In this document: positions 3,645 to 15,234 of the stretch, in pieces
Layout: the number at the start of each line of letters is the position of its first letter
How positions within the stretch are numbered: position 1 is the first letter of the stretch
Source of the DNA: Armatimonadota bacterium
GTDB taxonomy: Bacteria > Armatimonadota > UBA5829 > DSUL01
Length of the DNA stretch: 64,000 nt
Direction of reading: 5' to 3'
Assembly: GCA_025998755.1 (NCBI GenBank)
Contig: AP024674.1
Coordinates: 2,930,162 to 2,994,161 of the forward strand
Translations under genes and position numbers: made by a program
Notes under the pieces: model-generated
What the model was told of the DNA's origin: nothing
Seen by the model: only the letters and a program-made list of their open reading frames with translations
Databases searched by the model: none

Positions 3645-4064
3645 ATGCCCACAACTGTTTCATCGGTCACTGCAGCCGCATCTTCGGGAAACACGTCCAC
3701 GGTCGTCAAGGATCGCATCTCTAGCGACAAGGAGACGTTCCTGAAGCTGCTTATCACTCAGCTGCGCAACCAGGATCCGCTGGACCCGGTGCAGGACAAG
3801 GAGTTTATCGCTCAGCTTGCCCAGTTCAGCAGCCTGGAGACCCTGCAGTCCATAGACGCCAAGCTGGGAGCCTCAAACGACGGGGCCAGGCTGCAGCAGG
3901 CGGCCGCCCTCCTTGGGCGTCAGGTGACCGTGGCTGATCCGGACGCCTCCGACCTGGTCCAGGGTAGGGTAACCTCGGTACGGCTAGCGTCAGGCGGCGA
4001 GCTTTTGGTCACCGTCAACGGAAAGGATTACCCGGTGCTCTGGCTGGCTGCCGTGAGCGAATAG
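3645..4064 (+). CDS. flgD: Flagellar hook-capping protein FlgD
   Basis: 139 residues with the FlgD N-terminal signature: KETFLKLLITQLRNQDPLDP at about residues 27-46, then KEFIAQLAQFSSLETLQSI. The C-terminal part (LLGRQVTVADPDAS through GKDYPV) is a short version of the beta domain. Many FlgD proteins are over 200 aa, so this is a minimal one. FlgD forms the cap on which hook subunits (FlgE) polymerise. It would be expected to be followed by flgE; here a CRISPR-Cas locus follows instead. An RBS (AGGAAGGAG) lies upstream of ATG 3645. Confidence 0.9.
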   Translation: MPTTVSSVTAAASSGNTSTVVKDRISSDKETFLKLLITQLRNQDPLDPVQDKEFIAQLAQFSSLETLQSIDAKLGASNDGARLQQAAALLGRQVTVADPDASDLVQGRVTSVRLASGGELLVTVNGKDYPVLWLAAVSE

Positions 4065-4279: not shown

Positions 4280-4470
4280 CGCTAGAGCCCTTGCGCGACA
4301 GCCGGGTGGAGGGAACAACGTTTCTGCAGTTGTTATAGCCCACCGGAGGAACGGAGGTCGCTATAATAAGGCTCACAGCCGTGAGGTTCTGCCGACCCGG
4401 GCTTCTAGCCCGGAGGCATCCTCTCGTGAAAAAGTGCCCCTGTCGGTCGCGTGCCGGCAGGGGCGTACTC
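4280..4470 (+). ncRNA. tracrRNA of the type II-C CRISPR system
   Basis: A CRISPR repeat-like stretch at 4332-4367 matches the array repeat at 32 of 36 positions (differences at positions 1, 27, 28 and 36) and is complementary to the crRNA strand. It runs directly into AATAAGGCTCAC, the layout known from Neisseria-type tracrRNAs. Next come a nexus-like hairpin (CTCAC 4372-4376 with GTGAG 4381-4385), a second hairpin (CCGGGC 4397-4402 with GCCCGG 4408-4413) and a long final stem (4435-4464). There is no U-tract after the last stem, so the 3' end is approximate. The 5' end is inferred from the promoter at 4245-4273. It lies just before cas9 on the same strand. Confidence 0.88.
4332..4367 (+). 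repeat. tracrRNA anti-repeat (isolated CRISPR-like repeat)
   Basis: A single 36-bp copy of the CRISPR repeat lies 4.6 kb away from the array. It has GTTATAGCCCACCGG at the left end and GCTATAAT at the right. It has no spacer partners and sits in front of a set of hairpins, which identifies it as an anti-repeat rather than a stray array fragment. Confidence 0.9.
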
Positions 4471-4498: not shown

Positions 4499-7400
4499 AT
4501 GAACTACGTTCTCGGTCTCGATGTTGGTATCTCCTCTGTCGGCTGGTGCGTTCTGAACCTTGATGACCAAAGGATCGAAGCACTGGGTGTCCGGGCCTTC
4601 AACGAGGCGGAAGACAAGAAGACCGGCGCGCCCCTTGCCGAGCCCCGCCGATTGAGCCGAAGTGCCCGGCGGCGACTCCGCAGGCGAGCCGGCAGACTGC
4701 GCAGGGCAAAGGACCTGTTCGTGACTTATGGCCTCATTCCGCCCGGGCGGGTGGACGAAGCCCTTGCAACCTCACCGGGCAAGCCAGACCCGTGGAGCCT
4801 GCGCGCAAAAGGGCTGGACCATCTCCTCCAGCCCGAGGAGTTTGCGCGCGCGCTCTTCCACATCGTAAAGCGCCGTGGGTTTAAGAGCAATCGCCGGGAG
4901 GACTCCGCCAAGGCGGACCAGGAGTCCCGCAAGATGCTGGCGGCCATCGAGGAGAACCGACGCCGCATGCAGGAAAAGGGCTACCGCACCGCGGGCGAGA
5001 TGTTCGTCCGGGATGAGCGGTTCGCGGAGCGCAAAAGAAACACGGAAGGGTTCTACGGCTTCTCCGTGGATCGTTCGCTTCTGGAAGAGGAGATAAAGGT
5101 ACTCTTTGAATCCCAGCGGCGTCTGGGGAACACGCTTGCCACTGCTGATTTCGAGCGCGATCTCCTGGATGTCTTCCGCTGGCAGATGCCGTTCGTGAAG
5201 GGGGACAGACTGCTGAGCCTCGTGGGGGAGTGCACCTTCGAGCCGGAGGAAAAGCGCGCACCCAAATCCGCTCCCACCACCGAGCGTTTCAACCTCCTGC
5301 AACATATCAACCGACTGGTCATCACCCAGGACGGCACCGAGCGGCGCCTGGAGCCGGAAGAGCGGGCCGCGGTCCGGGACCTGGCCTACCGCCAGGCCAG
5401 GGTGACGTATGCGCAGCTGCGTCGGCGCCTCTCGTTGCCGGACTCCGCGCGTTTCAAGGGACTCGCCTACAACCGCCGCAAAGATGGCCAGATGGATGAG
5501 ACCCTGGACTGCGAGAAAGCCACATTCGCAGAGCTCAAGGGATACCACTCCATCCGCGAAGCCATGGAAACTCACGGCCTCTGGGAGCAGCTCCAACAGC
5601 GGCCCGAATGGATGGACGAGATCGCCTTCGCCGCCACGTTCTTCAAGACGGAGGAGGACTTCCTGCGCCATCTCCACCGAGCCGGGCTGCCGGATGACAT
5701 CGCGAATGCCGCCCTGGAGGTACCGTCGTTCAGCAAGGTGGGTCACCTCTCGCTCAAGGCCATGCAGCGGATGATGCCATACCTCGAGCAGGGGATGCTT
5801 TACAGCGAGGCGGCAGCCGCGGCGGGTTACGATCATTCTTCGCCGCGACGCAGTCCCACAAGCCACCTGCTTCCGCCTTTTGACCCGGATGAAGTCCGCA
5901 ACCCGGTGGTGCTCCGTGCCCTGTCCCAGGCCCGTAAGGTCATTAACGCCGTGGTCCGGCGCTACGGTTCCCCGTGCCGGGTTCACATAGAGCTTGCCCG
6001 AGAGGTCGGCAAATCCGCCCTGGAGCGCAGGCGCATCCAGAAGGAGATAGAGGCTAACCGCAAGCGCAAGCAGGAGGAGCGAGAGGAGTTCTCCAGAAAC
6101 TTCGGACGCGAGCCGCGGGAAGAGGACTTCATCAAGTTCCGCCTTTACCGGGAACAGAACGGGCAGTGCGCCTATTGCGACCATCGCGGCAAGGATTCGC
6201 TGGACTTGGACAGGTTGTTCGAGCCTCACTACGCAGAGGTGGACCACATCCTTCCCTATAGCCGGAGCTTCGACGACTCCATGGCCAACCGCGTGGTGGT
6301 CTGTGCCCGCTGCAACCAGGAGAAGCGCGGACGCACGCCCCACGAGTGGTTCGGTGCGGATTCGGGCCGCTGGGAGGCGTTCGAAGCCTGGGTGAAGGCC
6401 ACCATCAAGCACATGAAAAAACGCAACATCCTGCTGACCAGGGACTTTCAGAAAAGGCAGGAAGACTGGTTCGAGAGGAACCTGAAAGACACGCAGTGGA
6501 TCGCGCGCGAGCTCGCCGACCACGTGCGGGAGCACCTGCAGTTCTCGGACCCCGCCGACAGGGCTCCGGTGCTCTGCCTTAACGGCAGGGTGGTGGCGAT
6601 GGCCCGTGGCCTCTGGGGCATCGCCAAGGTCCGCGAGGAGGACGACCTGCACCACGCCGCCGATGCTGCCGTCATCGCAGCCATGACGCCCGCCACGGTC
6701 CAGAGGATCACCCGTTATCACCAGGCCGTGGAAACCGGCAACCTCACTGTCGCCACGGACTTCCTCACCGGGGAGATCCAGGAGTTCGTCTACGGCCGCA
6801 AGTTCACCTTCCCGCCCCCATGGCCGGACTTCCGCAGAGAGCTCGTCGCTCGGCTGTCGGACGATCCCGCGCGCGCCATTGCGGACCTCGGGCTGAAGTC
6901 CTATGAACAGAACCCTCCGAAGCTCTCTCCGGTCATCGTTTCACGGATGCCCGTTCATAAAGCGGACGGCGCGCTGCACGCGGAGACCATCCGCTCCCTG
7001 CGCGAGGAGAAGGACGCCCGCTACTCCGTGGTCCGGGTGCCGCTCAAGCAACTGACGCGGGACCACCTGGAAAACCTCCTGGACACGGGAGGACACCTGG
7101 CGCGGGCGCTGCGTGAGCAGATGGACAGATACGGCGGGGATTCAGAAAAGGCCTTCGCCGAACCCTTCTATTGGCAGCGGCCCGACGGGTCCAAAAGGCT
7201 GGTCAAGGCGGTCCGGGTGAAGCAGTCACAGCCCTCGGGGTTCAAGGTCCGCGGCGGAATTGCCGACAATGAGTCCATGGTGAGGGTGGACGTGTTCCGG
7301 CGCAGCGGCAGGTTCTACCTTGTGCCGGTCTACGCCCGCCACATCGCCGCGGGTGTTCTCCCCAACCGCGCCATTGCTGCCGGGCGGCCGGAGGACGAAT

Positions 7401-7708
7401 GGCCGGAAATGACCGAGGAATACGAGTTCCTGTTCTCGCTTCGGCCTTTCGATCTGGTGCATCTGGCGGATGAGAAGGACGATATCCTGGGCTATTACCG
7501 GGGCGTTGACCGAAGCAGCGGCCGCCTGAAGTTGACGCCGCCGAACTCTGCTGATGAAAAAAACCTGATCAGAAAAGGGGCTAGGACCCTCCTAACGTTC
7601 GAGAAGCTGGGGGTGAGCCTACTGGGGGAGATCTTCCCTCTGAAAGCCGAGCAACGCCGTGGCGTGGAGGACTGTGGCCATAACCAATCCCGCCAGGCTC
7701 CGGGTTGA
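4499..7708 (+). CDS. cas9: Type II-C CRISPR-associated endonuclease Cas9, 1069 aa
   Basis: RNA-guided DNA endonuclease. RuvC-I begins at residue 5 (LGLDVGISSVGW, catalytic Asp8). An Arg-rich bridge helix follows (about residues 50-72, RRLSRSARRRLRRRAGRLRR). RuvC-II is HIELAREVGKS with Glu498. The HNH domain has VDHILPYSRSF with catalytic His583, flanked by CAYC (557/560) and CARC (602/605), a likely zinc-binding set. RuvC-III is DDLHHAADAAVIA with His719 and Asp722. All catalytic residues are present, so it should be an active nuclease. At 1069 aa it matches compact II-C enzymes. The C-terminal roughly 250 residues should hold the PAM-interacting region; the PAM cannot be read from sequence. 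The 3' end overlaps cas1 by 50 bp. Confidence 0.97.
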   Translation: MNYVLGLDVGISSVGWCVLNLDDQRIEALGVRAFNEAEDKKTGAPLAEPRRLSRSARRRLRRRAGRLRRAKDLFVTYGLIPPGRVDEALATSPGKPDPWSLRAKGLDHLLQPEEFARALFHIVKRRGFKSNRREDSAKADQESRKMLAAIEENRRRMQEKGYRTAGEMFVRDERFAERKRNTEGFYGFSVDRSLLEEEIKVLFESQRRLGNTLATADFERDLLDVFRWQMPFVKGDRLLSLVGECTFEPEEKRAPKSAPTTERFNLLQHINRLVITQDGTERRLEPEERAAVRDLAYRQARVTYAQLRRRLSLPDSARFKGLAYNRRKDGQMDETLDCEKATFAELKGYHSIREAMETHGLWEQLQQRPEWMDEIAFAATFFKTEEDFLRHLHRAGLPDDIANAALEVPSFSKVGHLSLKAMQRMMPYLEQGMLYSEAAAAAGYDHSSPRRSPTSHLLPPFDPDEVRNPVVLRALSQARKVINAVVRRYGSPCRVHIELAREVGKSALERRRIQKEIEANRKRKQEEREEFSRNFGREPREEDFIKFRLYREQNGQCAYCDHRGKDSLDLDRLFEPHYAEVDHILPYSRSFDDSMANRVVVCARCNQEKRGRTPHEWFGADSGRWEAFEAWVKATIKHMKKRNILLTRDFQKRQEDWFERNLKDTQWIARELADHVREHLQFSDPADRAPVLCLNGRVVAMARGLWGIAKVREEDDLHHAADAAVIAAMTPATVQRITRYHQAVETGNLTVATDFLTGEIQEFVYGRKFTFPPPWPDFRRELVARLSDDPARAIADLGLKSYEQNPPKLSPVIVSRMPVHKADGALHAETIRSLREEKDARYSVVRVPLKQLTRDHLENLLDTGGHLARALREQMDRYGGDSEKAFAEPFYWQRPDGSKRLVKAVRVKQSQPSGFKVRGGIADNESMVRVDVFRRSGRFYLVPVYARHIAAGVLPNRAIAAGRPEDEWPEMTEEYEFLFSLRPFDLVHLADEKDDILGYYRGVDRSSGRLKLTPPNSADEKNLIRKGARTLLTFEKLGVSLLGEIFPLKAEQRRGVEDCGHNQSRQAPG

Positions 7709-8558
7709 GCAGGGCCAACTGGTCATAGGGCAGGACGAGGAAACCGCCCTGCCGCTGGAAGACATCGCCGTCCTTCTCATCGAGTCCCCGCAGGTGCTCC
7801 TGACCGCGGGGACTCTTGCGCGTCTGGGCGAGCATGATTGCCTGCTGCTGGTGTGCGGGGAGAAACACACGCCCGTCCTTGCCGGGCTGCCGTATGCCGG
7901 GCACAGCCGTCTCAGCGGCATCCACAGACTGCAACTGGGCACATCGCTGCCGTTCAGGAAGCGCTGCTGGCAGCGCATCGTCCGCCAGAAGGTTCTGAAC
8001 CAGGCGGAATGCCTCCGCCTGGCGGGATGCGTGCGCTGGAAGGACGTGGAGGCCCTGGCCGACCGGGTGGCCAGCGGGGACAGCGGCAACATCGAGAGTG
8101 TGGCCGCCCGGATGCATTTTTCCCTGCTCTTCGGCGAAGGGTGGTGGCGCGGCGGGCCGGACGGCCTGAACGGCGTCCTGGACTACGGATACGCCGTCCT
8201 TAGGGCGGCCGTGGTCCGCGCCCTGGCGGCGCACGGATTGCTGCTTACGGTGGGGCTGCACCATTCCAGCGAACTGAACCCCTTCAACCTGGCGGATGAC
8301 TTTCTGGAGCCTCTGAGGCCGGCCGTGGACCTGTTCGCCGCCGGGCTGAAGCCCCCGCCGGACGTCCTGACGCGGGAACTGCGCATTCGCCTGGTGGAGC
8401 TGCTGGGCTGTGAGGTTCTGGTGGACGGCAAGCGCCACAGCATCCTGAACGCCTGCACGCTGGTGGCCGCCAGCTTCCAGGCGGCCTGCCGGCACAAGGA
8501 TCCCTCCTTGTTGCGCCTTCCGGAGATCTTTGCGCTGACAGAGCACCGGTATGGGTAG
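7659..8558 (+). CDS. cas1: CRISPR integrase Cas1 (type II)
   Basis: 299 residues with the type II Cas1 opening WRTVAIT and the catalytic set: Glu in GNIESVAARMHF (about residue 147), His in VGLHHSSELNPFNLADD (about 205) and Glu in FLEPLRP (about 220). Cas1 with Cas2 integrates protospacers at the array. Start is GTG 7659, giving the family-typical N-terminus and a 50-bp overlap with cas9, so translation is probably coupled. The 8-bp overlap with cas2 continues the operon. Confidence 0.95.
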   Translation: MAWRTVAITNPARLRVEQGQLVIGQDEETALPLEDIAVLLIESPQVLLTAGTLARLGEHDCLLLVCGEKHTPVLAGLPYAGHSRLSGIHRLQLGTSLPFRKRCWQRIVRQKVLNQAECLRLAGCVRWKDVEALADRVASGDSGNIESVAARMHFSLLFGEGWWRGGPDGLNGVLDYGYAVLRAAVVRALAAHGLLLTVGLHHSSELNPFNLADDFLEPLRPAVDLFAAGLKPPPDVLTRELRIRLVELLGCEVLVDGKRHSILNACTLVAASFQAACRHKDPSLLRLPEIFALTEHRYG

Positions 8559-8871
8559 GTTTATGAGGCTGATGGTTCTCTTCGACCTCCCGGTGAAGAG
8601 AAAGGCGGACCGCAAGGCCTACGCCCGGTTCCGCAAGTTCCTGATCCGGGACGGATATGACATGATCCAGTTCAGCGTCTACGCCCGAATCTGCAACGGC
8701 CAGGAGGCGCTGGAGAAACATGTGAAGCGCCTGATGCTGAACGCCCCCTCCCGGGGATCGGTGCGCTACTTGCAGCTTACGGAGAAACAGTTCACGGATA
8801 TGAAGGTTCTGGTGGGCGTGAAAAAACCGAAGGAAGATCCGCGCTTCGCGCGCCAACTCAGCCTTTTTTGA
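8551..8871 (+). CDS. cas2: CRISPR adaptation protein Cas2
   Basis: 106 residues with the ferredoxin-like Cas2 pattern: MRLMVLFDLPV at residues 5-15, the loop KADRKAYARFRKFLIRDG, then MIQFSVYARIC. It forms the structural dimer of the Cas1-Cas2 integrase. It overlaps cas1 by 8 bp. ATG 8551 is used, but ATG 8563 (MRLMVLFDLP) is also plausible and closer to the usual start. No cas4 or csn2 follows, which together with the Cas9 type fixes subtype II-C. Confidence 0.95.
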   Translation: MGRFMRLMVLFDLPVKRKADRKAYARFRKFLIRDGYDMIQFSVYARICNGQEALEKHVKRLMLNAPSRGSVRYLQLTEKQFTDMKVLVGVKKPKEDPRFARQLSLF

Positions 8872-8924: not shown

Positions 8925-9957
8925 CAACGCCAAGTATTATAGCCCACCGGAGGAACGGAGGGGGCTATAACCTGCGATCTACGCGGATCTCGCTCGATTA
9001 TAGCCCACCGGAGGAACGGAGGGGGCTATAACGGAAATGCAGGAGATATCCTGCACGAACGAGATTATAGCCCACCGGAGGAACGGAGGGGGCTATAACA
9101 TAGAATGGCCGGAGCCAGGCCTTGGCATCATTATAGCCCACCGGAGGAACGGAGGGGGCTATAACGGGCCTGATTGACCAGATCGTCGCCGCGGTATTAT
9201 AGCCCACCGGAGGAACGGAGGGGGCTATAACGTGGCTAGCTCTGGCCAGTTGTACTCCTCCATTATAGCCCACCGGAGGAACGGAGGGGGCTATAACCAC
9301 TTATTTTCCATCAACATCCGCCTGCGCATTATAGCCCACCGGAGGAACGGAGGGGGCTATAACCGACCGCACGGCGGAGGATGCCATTGCCGCATTATAG
9401 CCCACCGGAGGAACGGAGGGGGCTATAACATGTGTGGGACGGCATAAACCGCGGGTTTCATTATAGCCCACCGGAGGAACGGAGGGGGCTATAACGCAGA
9501 CCGTGGGGCACTGGCTGGATTTCATATTATAGCCCACCGGAGGAACGGAGGGGGCTATAACACTCGGGACGGCGGATGTATTCGGTGAGGAATTATAGCC
9601 CACCGGAGGAACGGAGGGGGCTATAACCAAGCTATAGCAGCCTCTCCTCGCAACACAATTATAGCCCACCGGAGGAACGGAGGGGGCTATAACAGCTTTC
9701 GGTCCGCTATAAGTTCGGCCATGATTATAGCCCACCGGAGGAACGGAGGGGGCTATAACTCGACAGCAGCCTCTCTGACGTCACGAACGATTATAGCCCA
9801 CCGGAGGAACGGAGGGGGCTATAACCGTGGTCGGCGAGACAAGTCCGCCGAGCATATTATAGCCCACCGGAGGAACGGAGGGGGCTATAACTGTTGATTC
9901 TCATCGCACCCTCACAGGCTCATTATAGCCCACCGGAGGAACGGAGGGGGCTATAAC

Positions 9958-10053
9958 CGGCACGGGCTATACAGCGCTTCGCCTGAAATTATAGCCCACC
10001 GGAGGAACGGAGGGGGCTATAACTCCGTTGCGGATGAACAGCCCGATACGGGC
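9958..10053. repeat. Duplicated spacer pair, copy 1
   Basis: Two consecutive spacers and the repeat between them (spacers 9958-9987 and 10024-10053) recur base for base at 10421-10516. The first spacer begins CGGCACGGGC and the second TCCGTTGCGG. Flanking spacers differ, so only this pair was copied, most simply by recombination between repeats. Confidence 0.95.
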
Positions 10054-10420
10054 ATTATAGCCCACCGGAGGAACGGAGGGGGCTATAACACGACCCGGCG
10101 GCAGACGACCCCGACAGCTATTATAGCCCACCGGAGGAACGGAGGGGGCTATAACTTGCGCCGGTTGCAGTAGTATTGGTGATTCATTATAGCCCACCGG
10201 AGGAACGGAGGGGGCTATAACTAGCGAGGCGGCGATATGAACTCAACTGTGATTATAGCCCACCGGAGGAACGGAGGGGGCTATAACTTCCGCAGCGTAT
10301 CGGATTTCGCCCGTCGTTATTATAGCCCACCGGAGGAACGGAGGGGGCTATAACCATATTCGACAACGGGCGCATATCCGGCATATTATAGCCCACCGGA
10401 GGAACGGAGGGGGCTATAAC

Positions 10421-10516
10421 CGGCACGGGCTATACAGCGCTTCGCCTGAAATTATAGCCCACCGGAGGAACGGAGGGGGCTATAACTCCGTTGCGGATGA
10501 ACAGCCCGATACGGGC
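10421..10516. repeat. Duplicated spacer pair, copy 2
   Basis: Identical to 9958-10053 (spacers 10421-10450 and 10487-10516). It lies 463 bp further right, with six other spacers between the two pairs. Confidence 0.95.
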
Positions 10517-11347
10517 ATTATAGCCCACCGGAGGAACGGAGGGGGCTATAACCCCCGGCAGCAACCGTGTACAGGAACCGGCATTATAGCCCACCGGAGG
10601 AACGGAGGGGGCTATAACCAATGCTCAGGAGCGCGCGCAGACGCGTCTATTATAGCCCACCGGAGGAACGGAGGGGGCTATAACCTTCTTCCGGCCTTGT
10701 GTGGCCGGGGTTTTATTATAGCCCACCGGAGGAACGGAGGGGGCTATAACGCTGGCGCTGGACAGCGCAGCAGATCCCTGATTATAGCCCACCGGAGGAA
10801 CGGAGGGGGCTATAACCCGAGGGAAATACGCGCCGGACTGCGTGCGATTATAGCCCACCGGAGGAACGGAGGGGGCTATAACTCCCTAGCCGCGCGGCGC
10901 GCGTCCAGGCTCATTATAGCCCACCGGAGGAACGGAGGGGGCTATAACCTCAATCGGGATCCCCTCGCGCTTTGCCGGGATTATAGCCCACCGGAGGAAC
11001 GGAGGGGGCTATAACGATTTTCATCTCGGTAACTGAACAGCGCAGATTATAGCCCACCGGAGGAACGGAGGGGCTATAACACGTCGAGGACGCCGCAGCC
11101 TACGGAGTCCATTATAGCCCACCGGAGGAACGGAGGGGGCTATAACCGGCAGCGTGCAGTACATGTGGGCGTTCGAATTATAGCCCACCGGAGGAACGGA
11201 GGGGGCTATAACTACGACCTGTTCAAAGTCATCCTCATCTACATTATAGCCCACCGGAGGAACGGAGGCAGCTATAACAAAACCCAGCCTGGGCCACAGC
11301 CCTTGCTAATTATAGCCCACCGGAGGAACGGAGGGGGCTATAACTCA

Positions 11348-11626
11348 CTACCTTATCCATTTACATCGGCACATAGCAGTTATCTTGACGAAAATAACCG
11401 CGTTATACAACTCGCGGCACCCAGTAATGAACGGGACTTCCGAAGGAGATTTGTCCGAGTAAAACACATAATCCAGATCGTCCCAGATCTCCATCCCGTG
11501 ATTCGCTATCTCCAAAACACCGCGTAGCTCTTTTCCGCACTCTGGGCACTTGTGCGTCATTCTAGAATACCTGTCACCTTGACAAGACCCCGGAATACAA
11601 GTCAACCGAGTAGGACCTATAAGCAT
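11348..11626 (-). CDS. Small CPECG zinc-knuckle protein, module copy 1
   Basis: 92 residues with a shared core (YSRMTHKCPECGKELRGVLE), one CxxC pair and two later cysteines. I do not recognise the family. It is a clear paralogue of the gene at 12606-12890; identity is strong through the core and the tail VTGC..LYN. Start at 11626 is supported by GGAGG 6 nt upstream, also present in the paralogue. The stop lies 4 bp from the last intact CRISPR repeat, and the final roughly 7 residues diverge from the paralogue, as if the 3' end was replaced at the array boundary. The membrane gene that follows the other copy is missing here. Confidence 0.6.
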   Translation of the reverse strand: MLIGPTRLTCIPGSCQGDRYSRMTHKCPECGKELRGVLEIANHGMEIWDDLDYVFYSDKSPSEVPFITGCRELYNAVIFVKITAMCRCKWIR

Positions 11627-11655
11627 GGCACGCCTCCGTTACTTTTCTATCCATT

Positions 11656-11696
11656 AACAAAAGAAGACCACCGCCCCGGTGACCGAAGCGGTGGTC
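11656..11696 (-). terminator. Rho-independent terminator between module genes
   Basis: On the minus strand GACCACCGC pairs with GCGGTGGTC (plus coordinates 11666-11674 with 11688-11696), followed by a T-rich run (TTCTTTTG). It ends the transcript of the soluble-protein gene (11748-12203) before the small zinc-knuckle gene. The same hairpin is conserved at 12931-12968. Confidence 0.75.
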
Positions 11697-11747
11697 CAGA
11701 GAAGAGAGTTGTCCAGCCATCTCCTTATGCTACTGCTTTGCGGACCG

Positions 11748-12203
11748 CTACATTATCACTTGACTGATCATCCTTTCCAGCGTGTTCCTGTCTTCAACCC
11801 ACACCTTCGGGCCTTCCTGCTTCACAACAACGCATAGCGCATCACCAACACGCTTCTCCACGGCCCTCTGCGGGAACTCTTTGTTCAGCTTGCACCAGCC
11901 GTGAATACCCTCAGCCTCCTTCCTGTATTAAGCGGCATCCATCTCAACATACACTGGATAAACGAATCGAGACAGATCCTGCTCCACCTGCTTGTAGGCC
12001 TCCTTGGCGTCTTCCGCCATCTGCCCGTCCCCAGAGGTCCCGGTGTATACGCGGTCCAGAAGCTTGTATCCCTTATGCACTATATAATCATACAACCAGG
12101 AAGCGTCAATGCCTGGCCTAAGCGGCGAGCATATACAATTATCCGGCTTCTCGTGGTCGGGGGGAAGCTGGACAACAACTACTTCATCACCACCAGTATG
12201 CAT
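11748..12203 (-). pseudogene. Soluble module protein, copy 1, with an in-frame stop
   Basis: The 5' part encodes 91 residues (from MHTGGDEVVVVQLPP to PVYVEMDAA), then TAA at 11928-11930. The same frame stays open for another 60 codons to a TAG at 11748. The downstream part (YRKEAEGIHGWCKL through ERMISQVIM) aligns with the intact paralogue at 13002-13292, where this codon is TAC. A single C-to-A change therefore truncated it. The start overlaps the end of the membrane gene by 17 bp, so translation was coupled. The family is not recognised. Confidence 0.6.
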
Positions 12204-12636
12204 TCATTCTATCCTCTGTATCCTGAATAAACCAGTTTATGCGGTGTATAATGGCGCGCGCCAGACGGAAGGAATACAGATATATCCGAACCGCCCATAC
12301 GATCCCACCAATGGTCATAACGATAGCATACACAAACCAGTAATAATATCCGGCGATCGGTATCATCCCGAAAAAATAGCCAAGAACGATACCGACAATC
12401 CAGATCATTATTACCAGGTTGACATAAAAATACCACGGCACTACACCGTCGACGTAGCAGGCCTGGGGAGGCCGTACCCATACGCCGATGCACAGGGCAA
12501 AAGCCAAAGCCCAAGGCCAGCCATACTTGCGTATATAAAAAGGCTCAAGTGTTACCAGACACTTGGCTAGATAAATCCAGTATTTAATTGTCTCTATTAT
12601 GCTTGTCATTTTAGTCCGCCACCAGTGTCCTTGCAT
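12187..12636 (-). CDS. Small membrane protein of the unknown module
   Basis: 149 residues, aromatic-rich, with three probable membrane segments: about residues 37-54 (YGWPWALAFALCIGVWV), 68-93 (YFYVNLVIMIWIVGIVLGYF) and 96-121 (AGYYYWFVYAIVMTIGGIVW). The ends are charged (AIIHRINWFIQDTEDRMN). I do not recognise it. It overlaps the upstream zinc-knuckle gene by 31 bp and the downstream soluble-protein gene by 17 bp, so the three form one translationally linked operon. Codon use is AT-richer than the flanking chromosome, suggesting foreign origin. A later ATG (MTSIIETIKYW) is also possible. Confidence 0.6.
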   Translation of the reverse strand: MQGHWWRTKMTSIIETIKYWIYLAKCLVTLEPFYIRKYGWPWALAFALCIGVWVRPPQACYVDGVVPWYFYVNLVIMIWIVGIVLGYFFGMIPIAGYYYWFVYAIVMTIGGIVWAVRIYLYSFRLARAIIHRINWFIQDTEDRMNAYWW

Positions 12637-12890
12637 AGCGCGGCCATCTTGACAAAAATGGCCGTGTTATACAACGCTTGGCACCCGGTAACGAACGGAG
12701 CGGTGGAAGGTGATTCTTCCGAGTAAAACCAGTAATCCACATCACGCCAGTCACTCATTCCGTGATGAGCTATCTCCAAAACACCGCGTAGCTCTTTTCC
12801 GCACTCTGGGCACTTGTGCGTCATTCTAGAATACCTTTCACCCTTAAGAGAATCCAGAAGACTAATGAGCCGATCGACATACATGTTCAT
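12606..12890 (-). CDS. Small CPECG zinc-knuckle protein, module copy 2
   Basis: 94 residues, paralogue of the 11348-11626 gene. After a variable first 20 residues it has ERYSRMTHKCPECGKELRG and FVTGCQALYNTAIFVKM. One CxxC plus two later cysteines could bind zinc. Start ATG 12890 has GGAGG 6 nt upstream. It is the first gene of the complete operon (zinc-knuckle, membrane, soluble). No known domain is evident beyond the cysteine motif. Confidence 0.62.
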   Translation of the reverse strand: MNMYVDRLISLLDSLKGERYSRMTHKCPECGKELRGVLEIAHHGMSDWRDVDYWFYSEESPSTAPFVTGCQALYNTAIFVKMAALCKDTGGGLK

Positions 12891-12930
12891 GGCAAGCCTC
12901 CGCTACTTCTCTGTCCATTAATAGTAGTAG

Positions 12931-12968
12931 AAGCATAAGACCACCGCCCGGTGACCGAAGCGGTGGTC
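12931..12968 (-). terminator. Conserved hairpin terminator upstream of module copy 2
   Basis: GACCACCGC 12939-12947 pairs with GCGGTGGTC 12960-12968, followed on the minus strand by TTATGCTTCT. It is the same element as at 11656-11696, in the same position after the soluble-protein gene, which confirms a tandem duplication of a unit ending in this terminator. Confidence 0.65.
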
Positions 12969-13001
12969 CATATGGAAGTGTTGTCCAATGATCTCCTTAT
13001 G

Positions 13002-13292
13002 CTACTTCTTTGCGCAACTCTCTACTATTACTTCACTGATCATTTTTTCCAGCGTGTTCCTGTCTTCAACCCATACCTTCGGGTCTTCCTGCTTCACAAC
13101 AAGGCATAGCGCACCACCATAACGCTTCTCCGCCGCCCTCTGCGGGAACTCGTTGTACAGCTTGCACCCGCCATGGATACCCTCAGCCACGTTCCTGTAG
13201 TAAGCGGCATCCATCTCACTATACACTGGATAAACGAATCGAGACAGATCGTGCTCCACCTGCTTGTAGGCCTCCTTGGCGTCTTCCGTCAT
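13002..13292 (-). pseudogene. Soluble module protein, copy 2, 5'-truncated at a CRISPR repeat
   Basis: 96 residues remain (MTEDAKEAYKQVEHDLSRF through ISEVIVESCAKK). The match to copy 1 continues upstream of this ATG for about 37 bp (RVYTGTSGDGQ) and stops precisely at the degenerate CRISPR repeat 13331-13366, where an in-frame TAA appears. So the N-terminal roughly 54 residues are missing, while the C-terminal region, lost by a stop codon in copy 1, is intact here. Neither copy is complete. It may still be translated from the internal ATG, but no good RBS is seen. Confidence 0.55.
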
Positions 13293-13330
13293 CTGGCCGT
13301 CCCCAGAAGTCCCGGTGTATACGCGGTTCA

Positions 13331-13428
13331 GTTATAGCCCGCCGGCGCAACGGAGGGGGCTATAACCGGAAGGGGGGTACCGAAGTACTATTGACAAATT
13401 AAAGCCCACCGGCGGAGGGGGCTATAAC
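13331..13428 (-). CRISPR. Degenerate CRISPR unit: two decayed repeats and one spacer
   Basis: Repeat-like 13331-13366 keeps both ends but differs at four positions (1, 11, 16, 18). A 31-bp spacer-like stretch follows, then 13398-13428, a repeat that has lost 5 bp in its centre. The spacing equals that of the main array, so this is an old continuation of it. The left copy abuts the truncated module gene. Confidence 0.8.
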
Positions 13429-13585
13429 CTGCCGTGTGGACTCTTTACCCTTAGGTATTCAGGGCTGTTCAATGTCATGTACCCACGAGCAGAATCCCAG
13501 GTTTTGATTCCTGTTCGTGTGATCCGGGCAGCAATTTTAAAAAAAATTTTTTGGGCCCATTATTTGCCGCCCGTCTCGCAATTAC

Positions 13586-13614
13586 ATTATACACGTTATT
13601 CTTTAAAACCGCAA
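13586..13614 (-). promoter_or_regulatory. Minus-strand sigma-70-type promoter in the array-remnant region
   Basis: Reading the minus strand: TTGCGG (13609-13614), a 17-bp spacer and a perfect TATAAT (13586-13591). It points toward the degenerate repeats at 13331-13428 and the module genes. No start codon with an RBS follows closely, so the transcript may be noncoding at first. Confidence 0.55.
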
Positions 13615-13675
13615 CGCTGCTTTACAGACGCCCGACCAGGGCAGAAGCACTCACACAGGAAAAAGCCGCAGCCAC

Positions 13676-13701
13676 AATAAAAAGTAGCCCTACGCAGGGC
13701 T
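13676..13701 (-). terminator. Rho-independent terminator upstream of the 13.6-kb promoter
   Basis: Minus-strand AGCCCT, loop GCGT, AGGGCT (13686-13701), followed by ACTTTTTATT. It would stop any transcript coming leftward from the degenerate repeats at 13864-14084. The stretch 13429-13863 is otherwise AT-rich and I see no credible gene in it. Confidence 0.7.
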
Positions 13702-13863
13702 CCTCCCGCAGCAGGGCTATCTCCTCAATATCGGCTTATGGACTACGCTTTTTACGAATCCACATCCAAAGCGCCGCACACGCAGCACTCCTCGGAATCT
13801 CCGCCCTGTTTTTCCTTTTTAATTTTTTGCTTCTCGAATCAAGGCGTCCAGCTCGTCGACTGT

Positions 13864-13965
13864 GTTATAGCCCACCGGCGGAACGGAGGAGGCTATAACC
13901 AACGAGGGTGACCTGATGGCGATTATCGGGTTATAGCCCACCGGCGGAACGGAGGAGGCTATAAC
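13864..13965 (-). CRISPR. Degenerate CRISPR unit: two repeats of a variant type, one spacer
   Basis: Repeats 13864-13899 and 13930-13965 are identical to each other and share two changes relative to the main array (GGCGG for GGAGG, and GGAGGAGG for GGAGGGGG). The spacer is exactly 30 bp (13900-13929). The shared changes show descent from an older version of the array rather than random decay. Confidence 0.88.
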
Positions 13966-13985
13966 TTACAATACGGTACCAATGT

Positions 13986-14010
13986 ACAGTACTAGTATAT
14001 AGAGTACTGT
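13986..14010. repeat. Perfect inverted repeat between remnant repeats
   Basis: ACAGTACT 13986-13993 pairs with AGTACTGT 14003-14010 around a 9-nt AT-rich loop. A third partial copy (AATACTGTAG) follows near 14027. It lies in the 83-bp gap between degenerate repeats 13930-13965 and 14049-14084 and could be an operator or a small element remnant. Confidence 0.45.
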
Positions 14011-14048
14011 GCGCTCAGATTGGGCACAATACTGTAGGGTACAATTCA

Positions 14049-14084
14049 ATTGGAGCCCACCGGCGGAACGGAGGGGGCTATAAC
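14049..14084 (-). CRISPR. Solitary degenerate CRISPR repeat
   Basis: Matches the repeat except for ATTGGAG in place of ATTATAG at the left end and the GGCGG variant in the middle. It is the last trace of the array, 264 bp before cheY. Confidence 0.8.
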
Positions 14085-14347
14085 GCGCTGAAGACAGCGG
14101 AGTTCAGGGCCGCAGTCTGGAACCCCGTAAAAGTGCCGGTTTCTTTGCACCGCCCGCTTCACCAGTCCCGCGGACCCGCAGGAATGCGGAATATTTCAGG
14201 TGAACGCCGCAGCTGTCCCCGTCAGGGAAGGCGGGATGACTCCCCTGGGTTGCAACGCGGCGCGCCGGTTTGTCCGGTGCGCGCCCGGAGCGTCCCACCC
14301 GGAGGTGAATGACCTCCGGCGCGGGGGAAGAGATCAAGGTGGAGACC

Positions 14348-14713
14348 ATGAGTAAACGCATCCTTCTTGTGGATGACGCGCTCTTCATGAGGACGACCCT
14401 CAGGAAGATCCTTGAGGGCGCGCAATATGAGATCGCCGGCGAGGCCGAAAACGGGCAGGATGCCGTGGAGAAGTACCGCAGCCTGAAGCCCGATCTGGTC
14501 CTGATGGATATCACCATGCCCGTTATGGACGGGCTGGAGGCGGCGCGGACCATCCGGTCGGAGGATCCGAACGCCACCATCGTGATGTGCACCGCGCTGG
14601 GCCAGCAGAACCTGGTGGTGGAAGCGCTCAAGGCCGGCGCAAGAGACTATATTGTCAAGCCGTTTGAGCCGTCCCGGGTGCTGGAGGGTGTCGGGAAAGC
14701 GCTGGCGGCCTAA
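14348..14713 (+). CDS. cheY: CheY-like single-domain response regulator
   Basis: 121 residues forming one receiver domain: acidic pair in ILLVDDALFMR (residues 10-11), phosphoacceptor Asp in PDLVLMDITMP (about residue 55), Thr in MCTALGQ, Lys in DYIVKPF. There is no output domain, so it should act by binding partners such as the flagellar switch. I choose ATG 14348 because AAGGTGG lies 5 nt upstream and MSKRILLVDD is the usual start; ATG 14309 is in frame but adds an unrelated tail. It is followed 38 bp later by a CheX-type phosphatase, which supports a chemotaxis role. Confidence 0.88.
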   Translation: MSKRILLVDDALFMRTTLRKILEGAQYEIAGEAENGQDAVEKYRSLKPDLVLMDITMPVMDGLEAARTIRSEDPNATIVMCTALGQQNLVVEALKAGARDYIVKPFEPSRVLEGVGKALAA

Positions 14714-14751
14714 AGCCGGCGCTTTTCCCGCCGCAAACGGGGAAACCAAAA

Positions 14752-15234
14752 ATGAAAGTCGAATACATAGATCCGTTCGTGCAGGCGGCATTCGAGGTCA
14801 TCGCCCAGGTGACCGGCGATCAGCCAACGCGCGGGCCGCTTTCGCTTCGCGAGAAGTCCTTCACCACGCAGCAGGTCACCATTGTGGTGGGAGTGACCGG
14901 GCCCGTGGAGGGTCAGGCCCTCTACGGCATGTCCATCGTGACCGCCTCGAAGATCGCCACGGCCATGCTCCAGCAGGAGGTCATCTCGCTGGACGAGCTG
15001 GCCACCAGCGCCATCAGCGAGCTGGGCAACATGATCACGGCGCACGCCACGGCTCGCCTGGCTAAATCGGGGATCGTCTGCGATATCACGCCGCCCTCCG
15101 TGCTGCGCGGCATGAATGTCGAGGTGTCCACGTTTATCCCGGCGCTGGTCGTGCCGGTTCTGACTCAGTTCGGCAAGATGGAGATCAACGTCTCGCTGGC
15201 GGAGGTGGCGGCCACCGGCCGGAAAGTCGCCTGA
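14752..15234 (+). CDS. cheX: CheX-type chemotaxis phosphatase
   Basis: 160 residues of the CheX/CheC/FliY fold. The catalytic E-x-x-N appears as SELGNMITAHA (about residues 90-100). The flanking pattern TIVVGVTGPVEGQALYGM and ITPPSVLRGMNVEV fits CheX. CheX dephosphorylates CheY-P. Its position directly after cheY fits that role. The gene ends at a strong bidirectional terminator. Confidence 0.85.
   Translation: MKVEYIDPFVQAAFEVIAQVTGDQPTRGPLSLREKSFTTQQVTIVVGVTGPVEGQALYGMSIVTASKIATAMLQQEVISLDELATSAISELGNMITAHATARLAKSGIVCDITPPSVLRGMNVEVSTFIPALVVPVLTQFGKMEINVSLAEVAATGRKVA

Follow-up and report, generated by a model that had tools for sequence, protein, structure and literature searches.

A foreign three-gene block at the decaying end of a type II-C CRISPR array looks like a fossil of accidental recombination

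How does a stretch of protein-coding DNA come to lie between two repeats of a CRISPR array, where a spacer would be expected? The question is raised by a 64,000-nucleotide stretch of DNA (the window) from an Armatimonadota bacterium whose genome, assembled as one 3.29-Mb contig, contains the block in question once. A perfect repeat at 11309-11344 is followed by 1986 bp devoid of any repeat and then by a repeat at 13331-13366 that carries four differences. These coordinates are as given in a first-pass annotation, which had the block sitting in the exact place of a spacer and offered three explanations: that recombination between repeats had captured cargo, that the block is an element inserting itself into arrays, or that selection had favoured a system close to the array.

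The array belongs to a CRISPR-Cas locus that comprises, on the plus strand, cas9 (4499-7708; 1069 amino acids, a type II-C size, with matches to PADLOC Cas9 models, the best at E 2.6e-186), cas1 (7659-8558; PADLOC Cas1_II, E 7e-92) and cas2 (8551-8871; PADLOC Cas2_II, E 3e-43). Neither csn2 nor cas4 is present, the stretch from cas9 to the array holds no additional cas-sized gene, and the array directly follows cas2, starting 64 bp past it; it is a type II-C array. Upstream of cas9, at 4332-4367 on the plus strand, lies a repeat-like sequence with four mismatches to the repeat, presumed to be the tracrRNA anti-repeat, and a sequence like the repeat also stands at this position in relatives. 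The Cas9 protein is only about 50% identical to its nearest relatives within the phylum, and a similar Cas9 was found in only 8 of 100 relatives.

The intact part of the array (8936-11344) consists of 37 repeats of 36 nt, all but two of them identical and of the GGAGG type, separated by 36 spacers, 34 of which are distinct. Spacer length is tightly held, with 35 of the 36 measuring 30 or 31 nt and the first measuring 25 nt. One pair of adjacent spacers is present in two copies, with its order kept, at 9958-10053 and 10421-10516, indicating an internal duplication within the array. Comparison of the 34 distinct spacers with the host genome and phages gave no convincing match, and neither did comparison of the intact spacers with the block and the window.

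The block sits at a boundary, with the 37 near-perfect repeats on one side and five old, mutated repeats on the other, and the two groups also differ in the middle of the repeat (GGAG in the intact group, GGCG past the block). In type II-C systems, new spacers join at the last transcribed repeat; the oldest repeat is the first to be transcribed, and it is mutated in 60% of systems compared with 5% for other repeats (PMC12080349). The polarity of the present array is the same, its first repeats, beside cas2, being perfect and its five distal repeats mutated; in two relatives (G007 and G061), mutated repeats are likewise found at the end distal to the cas genes. Taken together, the comparison with these relatives and the type II-C literature place the block at the old, or trailer, end of the array, away from cas2.

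Past the block, the array is irregular. The repeat at its right edge (13331-13366, GGCGC) is followed, as the first-pass annotation had it, by a spacer-sized gap and another repeat, these being a 31-nt spacer (13367-13397) and a repeat at 13398-13428 in which we read a 5-nt deletion. A second oversize interval, of 435 bp and 49% GC, then extends from 13429 to 13863, and beyond it lie three repeats of the GGCGG type (13864-13899, 13930-13965 and 14049-14084) with three differences each, enclosing one 30-nt spacer and one 83-bp interval (13966-14048). The latter is AT-rich (40% GC) and contains the palindrome ACAGTACT...AGTACTGT. Last comes a spacer-sized sequence (14085-14114) whose outer repeat is missing. 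The block is therefore not the sole oversize interval in the array, and the 435-bp and 83-bp intervals, together with the missing outer repeat, indicate that repeat loss and oversize intervals arose here repeatedly. The arrangement resembles the degenerate oldest repeat described for type II-C systems in that a mutated old end lies distal to the end of acquisition and is transcribed first; here, however, decay spans five repeats and intervals of 435, 83 and 1986 bp (PMC12080349).

What the block encodes had been described as pieces of a tandem module of three genes, for a zinc-knuckle, a membrane and a soluble protein, and the partial tandem is confirmed. The block consists of about 1.6 copies of a unit of about 1.27 kb, encoded on the minus strand and composed of gene A (zinc-ribbon), gene B (membrane) and gene C (soluble), with 599 of 736 aligned columns identical between the two copies. 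Read along the minus strand, the order is the rest of C', A', B, C, a terminator and A. Gene C' (13002-13331) lacks its first ~50 codons and has the repeat in their place. Gene A' (12606-12890) encodes 94 amino acids, and its stop overlaps the start of gene B (ATGA), which encodes a 140-residue membrane protein with hydrophobic segments (12187-12609). The second C (copy 1; 11751-12203) is interrupted by an in-frame TAA at codon 92, making it a pseudogene. It is followed by an intrinsic terminator (11665-11697) with a 15-pair stem and a T-rich tail (-27.8 kcal/mol, z -6.9), and on account of this strong terminator A-B-C resembles a single operon. The second A (copy 1; 11348-11626) encodes 92 amino acids with a CPECG zinc-ribbon motif, and its final ~8 codons have no homology to copy 2.

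The A and A' proteins are 60% identical. Their genes share a 68-nt run of identical DNA but are only about 70% identical outside it, which suggests exchange between the copies. The ratio dN/dS between copies is ~0.42 for the core of A and 0.6 for both the whole of A and C, so A and C were probably once under some selection.

The two edges of the block differ in character. At the right edge, homology to copy 1 reaches the first base of the repeat at 13331, so that the claim that a gene is cut exactly at a repeat holds for C'. It does not hold in the same way on the left, where homology to the second copy of A ends near 11369-11372 and stops 24-27 nt short of the last intact repeat. The residual sequence (11345-11371) resembles the end of A' no better than chance would predict (shuffle p = 0.28), and its 24 nt beside the repeat gave no exact match in IMG/VR. 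Given this lack of homology to copy 2 and the usual spacer length of 30 nt, these nucleotides are possibly the remains of an ordinary spacer. The left junction may thus lie inside a spacer whose outer repeat has been lost, or at the end of such a spacer, in which case only one edge of the block coincides with a repeat and the supposedly exact fit to the place of a spacer applies to the right side alone. Alternatively, the 24-27 nt could be an unrelated end of A, whose frame closes with TAG TGA directly at the left repeat, near where a stop would be expected; judged from the reading frame, that edge too would then be exact. A short match at the right junction, between gene C and the end of the repeat (AGGGATACAA / CGGGCTATAA, 7 of 10 positions), is equalled at 7.5% of block positions; it is thus not significant and leaves microhomology unsupported.

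The composition of the block sets it apart from its surroundings. Its GC content is 50.0%, compared with 63.8 +/- 1.6% (minimum 60.1%) in 220 nearby segments of the same size, and its dinucleotide distance is 116, compared with 56 +/- 16 (maximum 95) in nearby segments. Among 291 genomes of the phylum, we found no relatives of A, B or C, and hence no convincing further instance of the module, beyond two weak zinc-ribbon matches to the A profile (G066 and G270); these cover mainly the CPxCG stretch inside far longer open frames and were not accepted as relatives. Family searches of the three proteins in Pfam, PHROGs, NCBIfam and PADLOC returned only a generic, weak zinc-ribbon signal for A, and in the PDB, A matched zinc fingers alone and C had no convincing match. 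With a mean pLDDT of 42.5, the AlphaFold models of the C and A proteins were left out of fold searches. No convincing relative came to light when the GTDB collection of contigs was searched with peptides conserved in A and C, or when A, B and C were sought in IMG/VR and in phage and plasmid collections. Three viral contigs matched C over 17-18 residues (YKLLDRVY), but they did so within much longer and otherwise unlike phage proteins, and we attribute these matches to chance. The composition, the absence from 291 phylum genomes and the orphan status of the proteins together support the capture of foreign DNA. That this DNA came from a mobile element is suggested by its composition and rarity, not by a donor; we found neither a donor element nor an empty site for the block, so the capture event itself is unseen.

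We consider it probable that a rare recombination event brought foreign DNA into a part of the array that selection no longer maintains, and that this DNA then decayed. The nonsense codon in C copy 1, the truncation of C' and the similar damage nearby at the old end all support capture followed by decay, and the block has the look of a relic of accidental recombination, not of a novel functioning system. With its roughly 1.6 tandem units of an orphan operon, it would probably derive from a mobile element such as a plasmid or phage, and it would have been captured at the old end of the array, which is transcribed first and probably inactive. Most likely, the incoming DNA would have been joined on one side to a spacer, either within it or at its edge, and on the other to the outer edge of a repeat. 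Erosion of the old end would have produced both the mutated flanking repeats and the other oversize intervals, and the block would have no specific role in CRISPR immunity. Counting against this account, the right edge fits to the base, and the left edge would be exact as well should the 24-27 nt belong to A.

Whole repeats at the two edges would be accounted for if the donor had itself carried the repeat. We entertained the possibility that a mobile element with a solitary repeat, or a mini-array, of the host type entered the array by homologous recombination and that most of it was later deleted. Complete repeats do flank the block on both sides, the repeat type shifts from GGAGG to GGCGG across it, and it has been proposed that viruses carrying solitary repeat units or mini-arrays recombine with host arrays by way of the repeats they share (PMC8616872). 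However, the 21-nt core of the present repeat, searched for as an exact match, occurs in no viral sequence of IMG/VR; the repeat is also absent from the other phylum genomes searched. Closed into a circle, the block would be an element that lacks replication genes and in which C' is still truncated, and the left junction possibly lies within a spacer. Of the proposal of cargo captured by repeat-repeat recombination, we thus retain the foreign capture, and regard the repeat-repeat route as possible but unlikely. The wider notion that arrays serve as homologous landing sites, and that the part left between two repeats is the trace of a repeat-mediated integration, appears to us a shade more doubtful still. 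If it were true, arrays would constitute a recombination target usable by mobile elements.

The remaining explanations fare worse. A functional accessory or defence module held beside the array by selection would agree with the dN/dS values of A and C, which probably reflect some constraint, and with the orientation of the genes along the presumed direction of crRNA transcription. We nevertheless judge this explanation, also put forward in the first-pass annotation, to be quite improbable: no block gene matched a PADLOC defence family at E values up to 0.1, the phylum holds no second instance, C carries a nonsense codon and both outer units are incomplete. An assembly chimera at 11344 or 13331 is very unlikely. 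The repetitive nature of arrays makes misjoins easy, but the genome is one contig with the block present once, and unusual intervals, such as those of 435 and 83 bp, are evidently a feature of this old array end. A new type of transposable element that targets CRISPR repeats would account for the coincidence of the block edges with repeats; it is most improbable in view of the truncated and pseudogenized content and the single copy, and the first-pass report of no transposase, integrase or terminal inverted repeats was borne out by family searches and by inspection of the edges. Insertion by Cas1-Cas2 or another integrase of a 2-kb oversize spacer at the boundary of a repeat, which would have been duplicated in the process, would explain whole repeats around a block in spacer position but is scarcely credible, as spacer lengths in the intact part are so narrowly distributed, the flanking repeats differ from each other and the literature searched offered no precedent.

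Foreign DNA inside a CRISPR region has been seen elsewhere. In Sulfolobus islandicus M.16.27, this region is drawn with a transposon insertion (PMC2946923); unlike that case, the block described here has neither a transposase nor terminal repeats, contains orphan genes and lies in a degenerate trailer. If the block is only a fossil, it illustrates that foreign DNA can accumulate at the trailer end of a type II-C array without a transposase, and that a seemingly precise insertion can derive from a spacer that has lost its outer repeat.

The locus lies among flagellar and chemotaxis genes, flanked by flgD (3645-4064) and a cheY-cheX pair (14309-15234). In relative G007, the cheX homologue adjoins cheY and is followed by a methyltransferase-like gene, with no CRISPR there.

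Read as its reverse complement, the repeat resembles the type II-C pattern, whose end, TATAAT, is similar to a -10 box. Most of the old repeats (13331-14084) begin with G and all intact ones (8936-11344) with A, so that the minus-strand end, a candidate -10-like box, reads TATAAC in most old repeats and TATAAT in the intact part. On sequence grounds, this change from G to A would have given putative crRNA promoters within the repeats, as in type II-C systems, a better -10 box. At the far end of the array, the spacer-sized sequence at 14085-14114 matches a sufB-like gene of the host (G000:C1:893523-893551, minus strand) at 28 of 29 positions, with one mismatch internal and one terminal; it may be an old self-derived spacer, situated where an extraneous crRNA would read.
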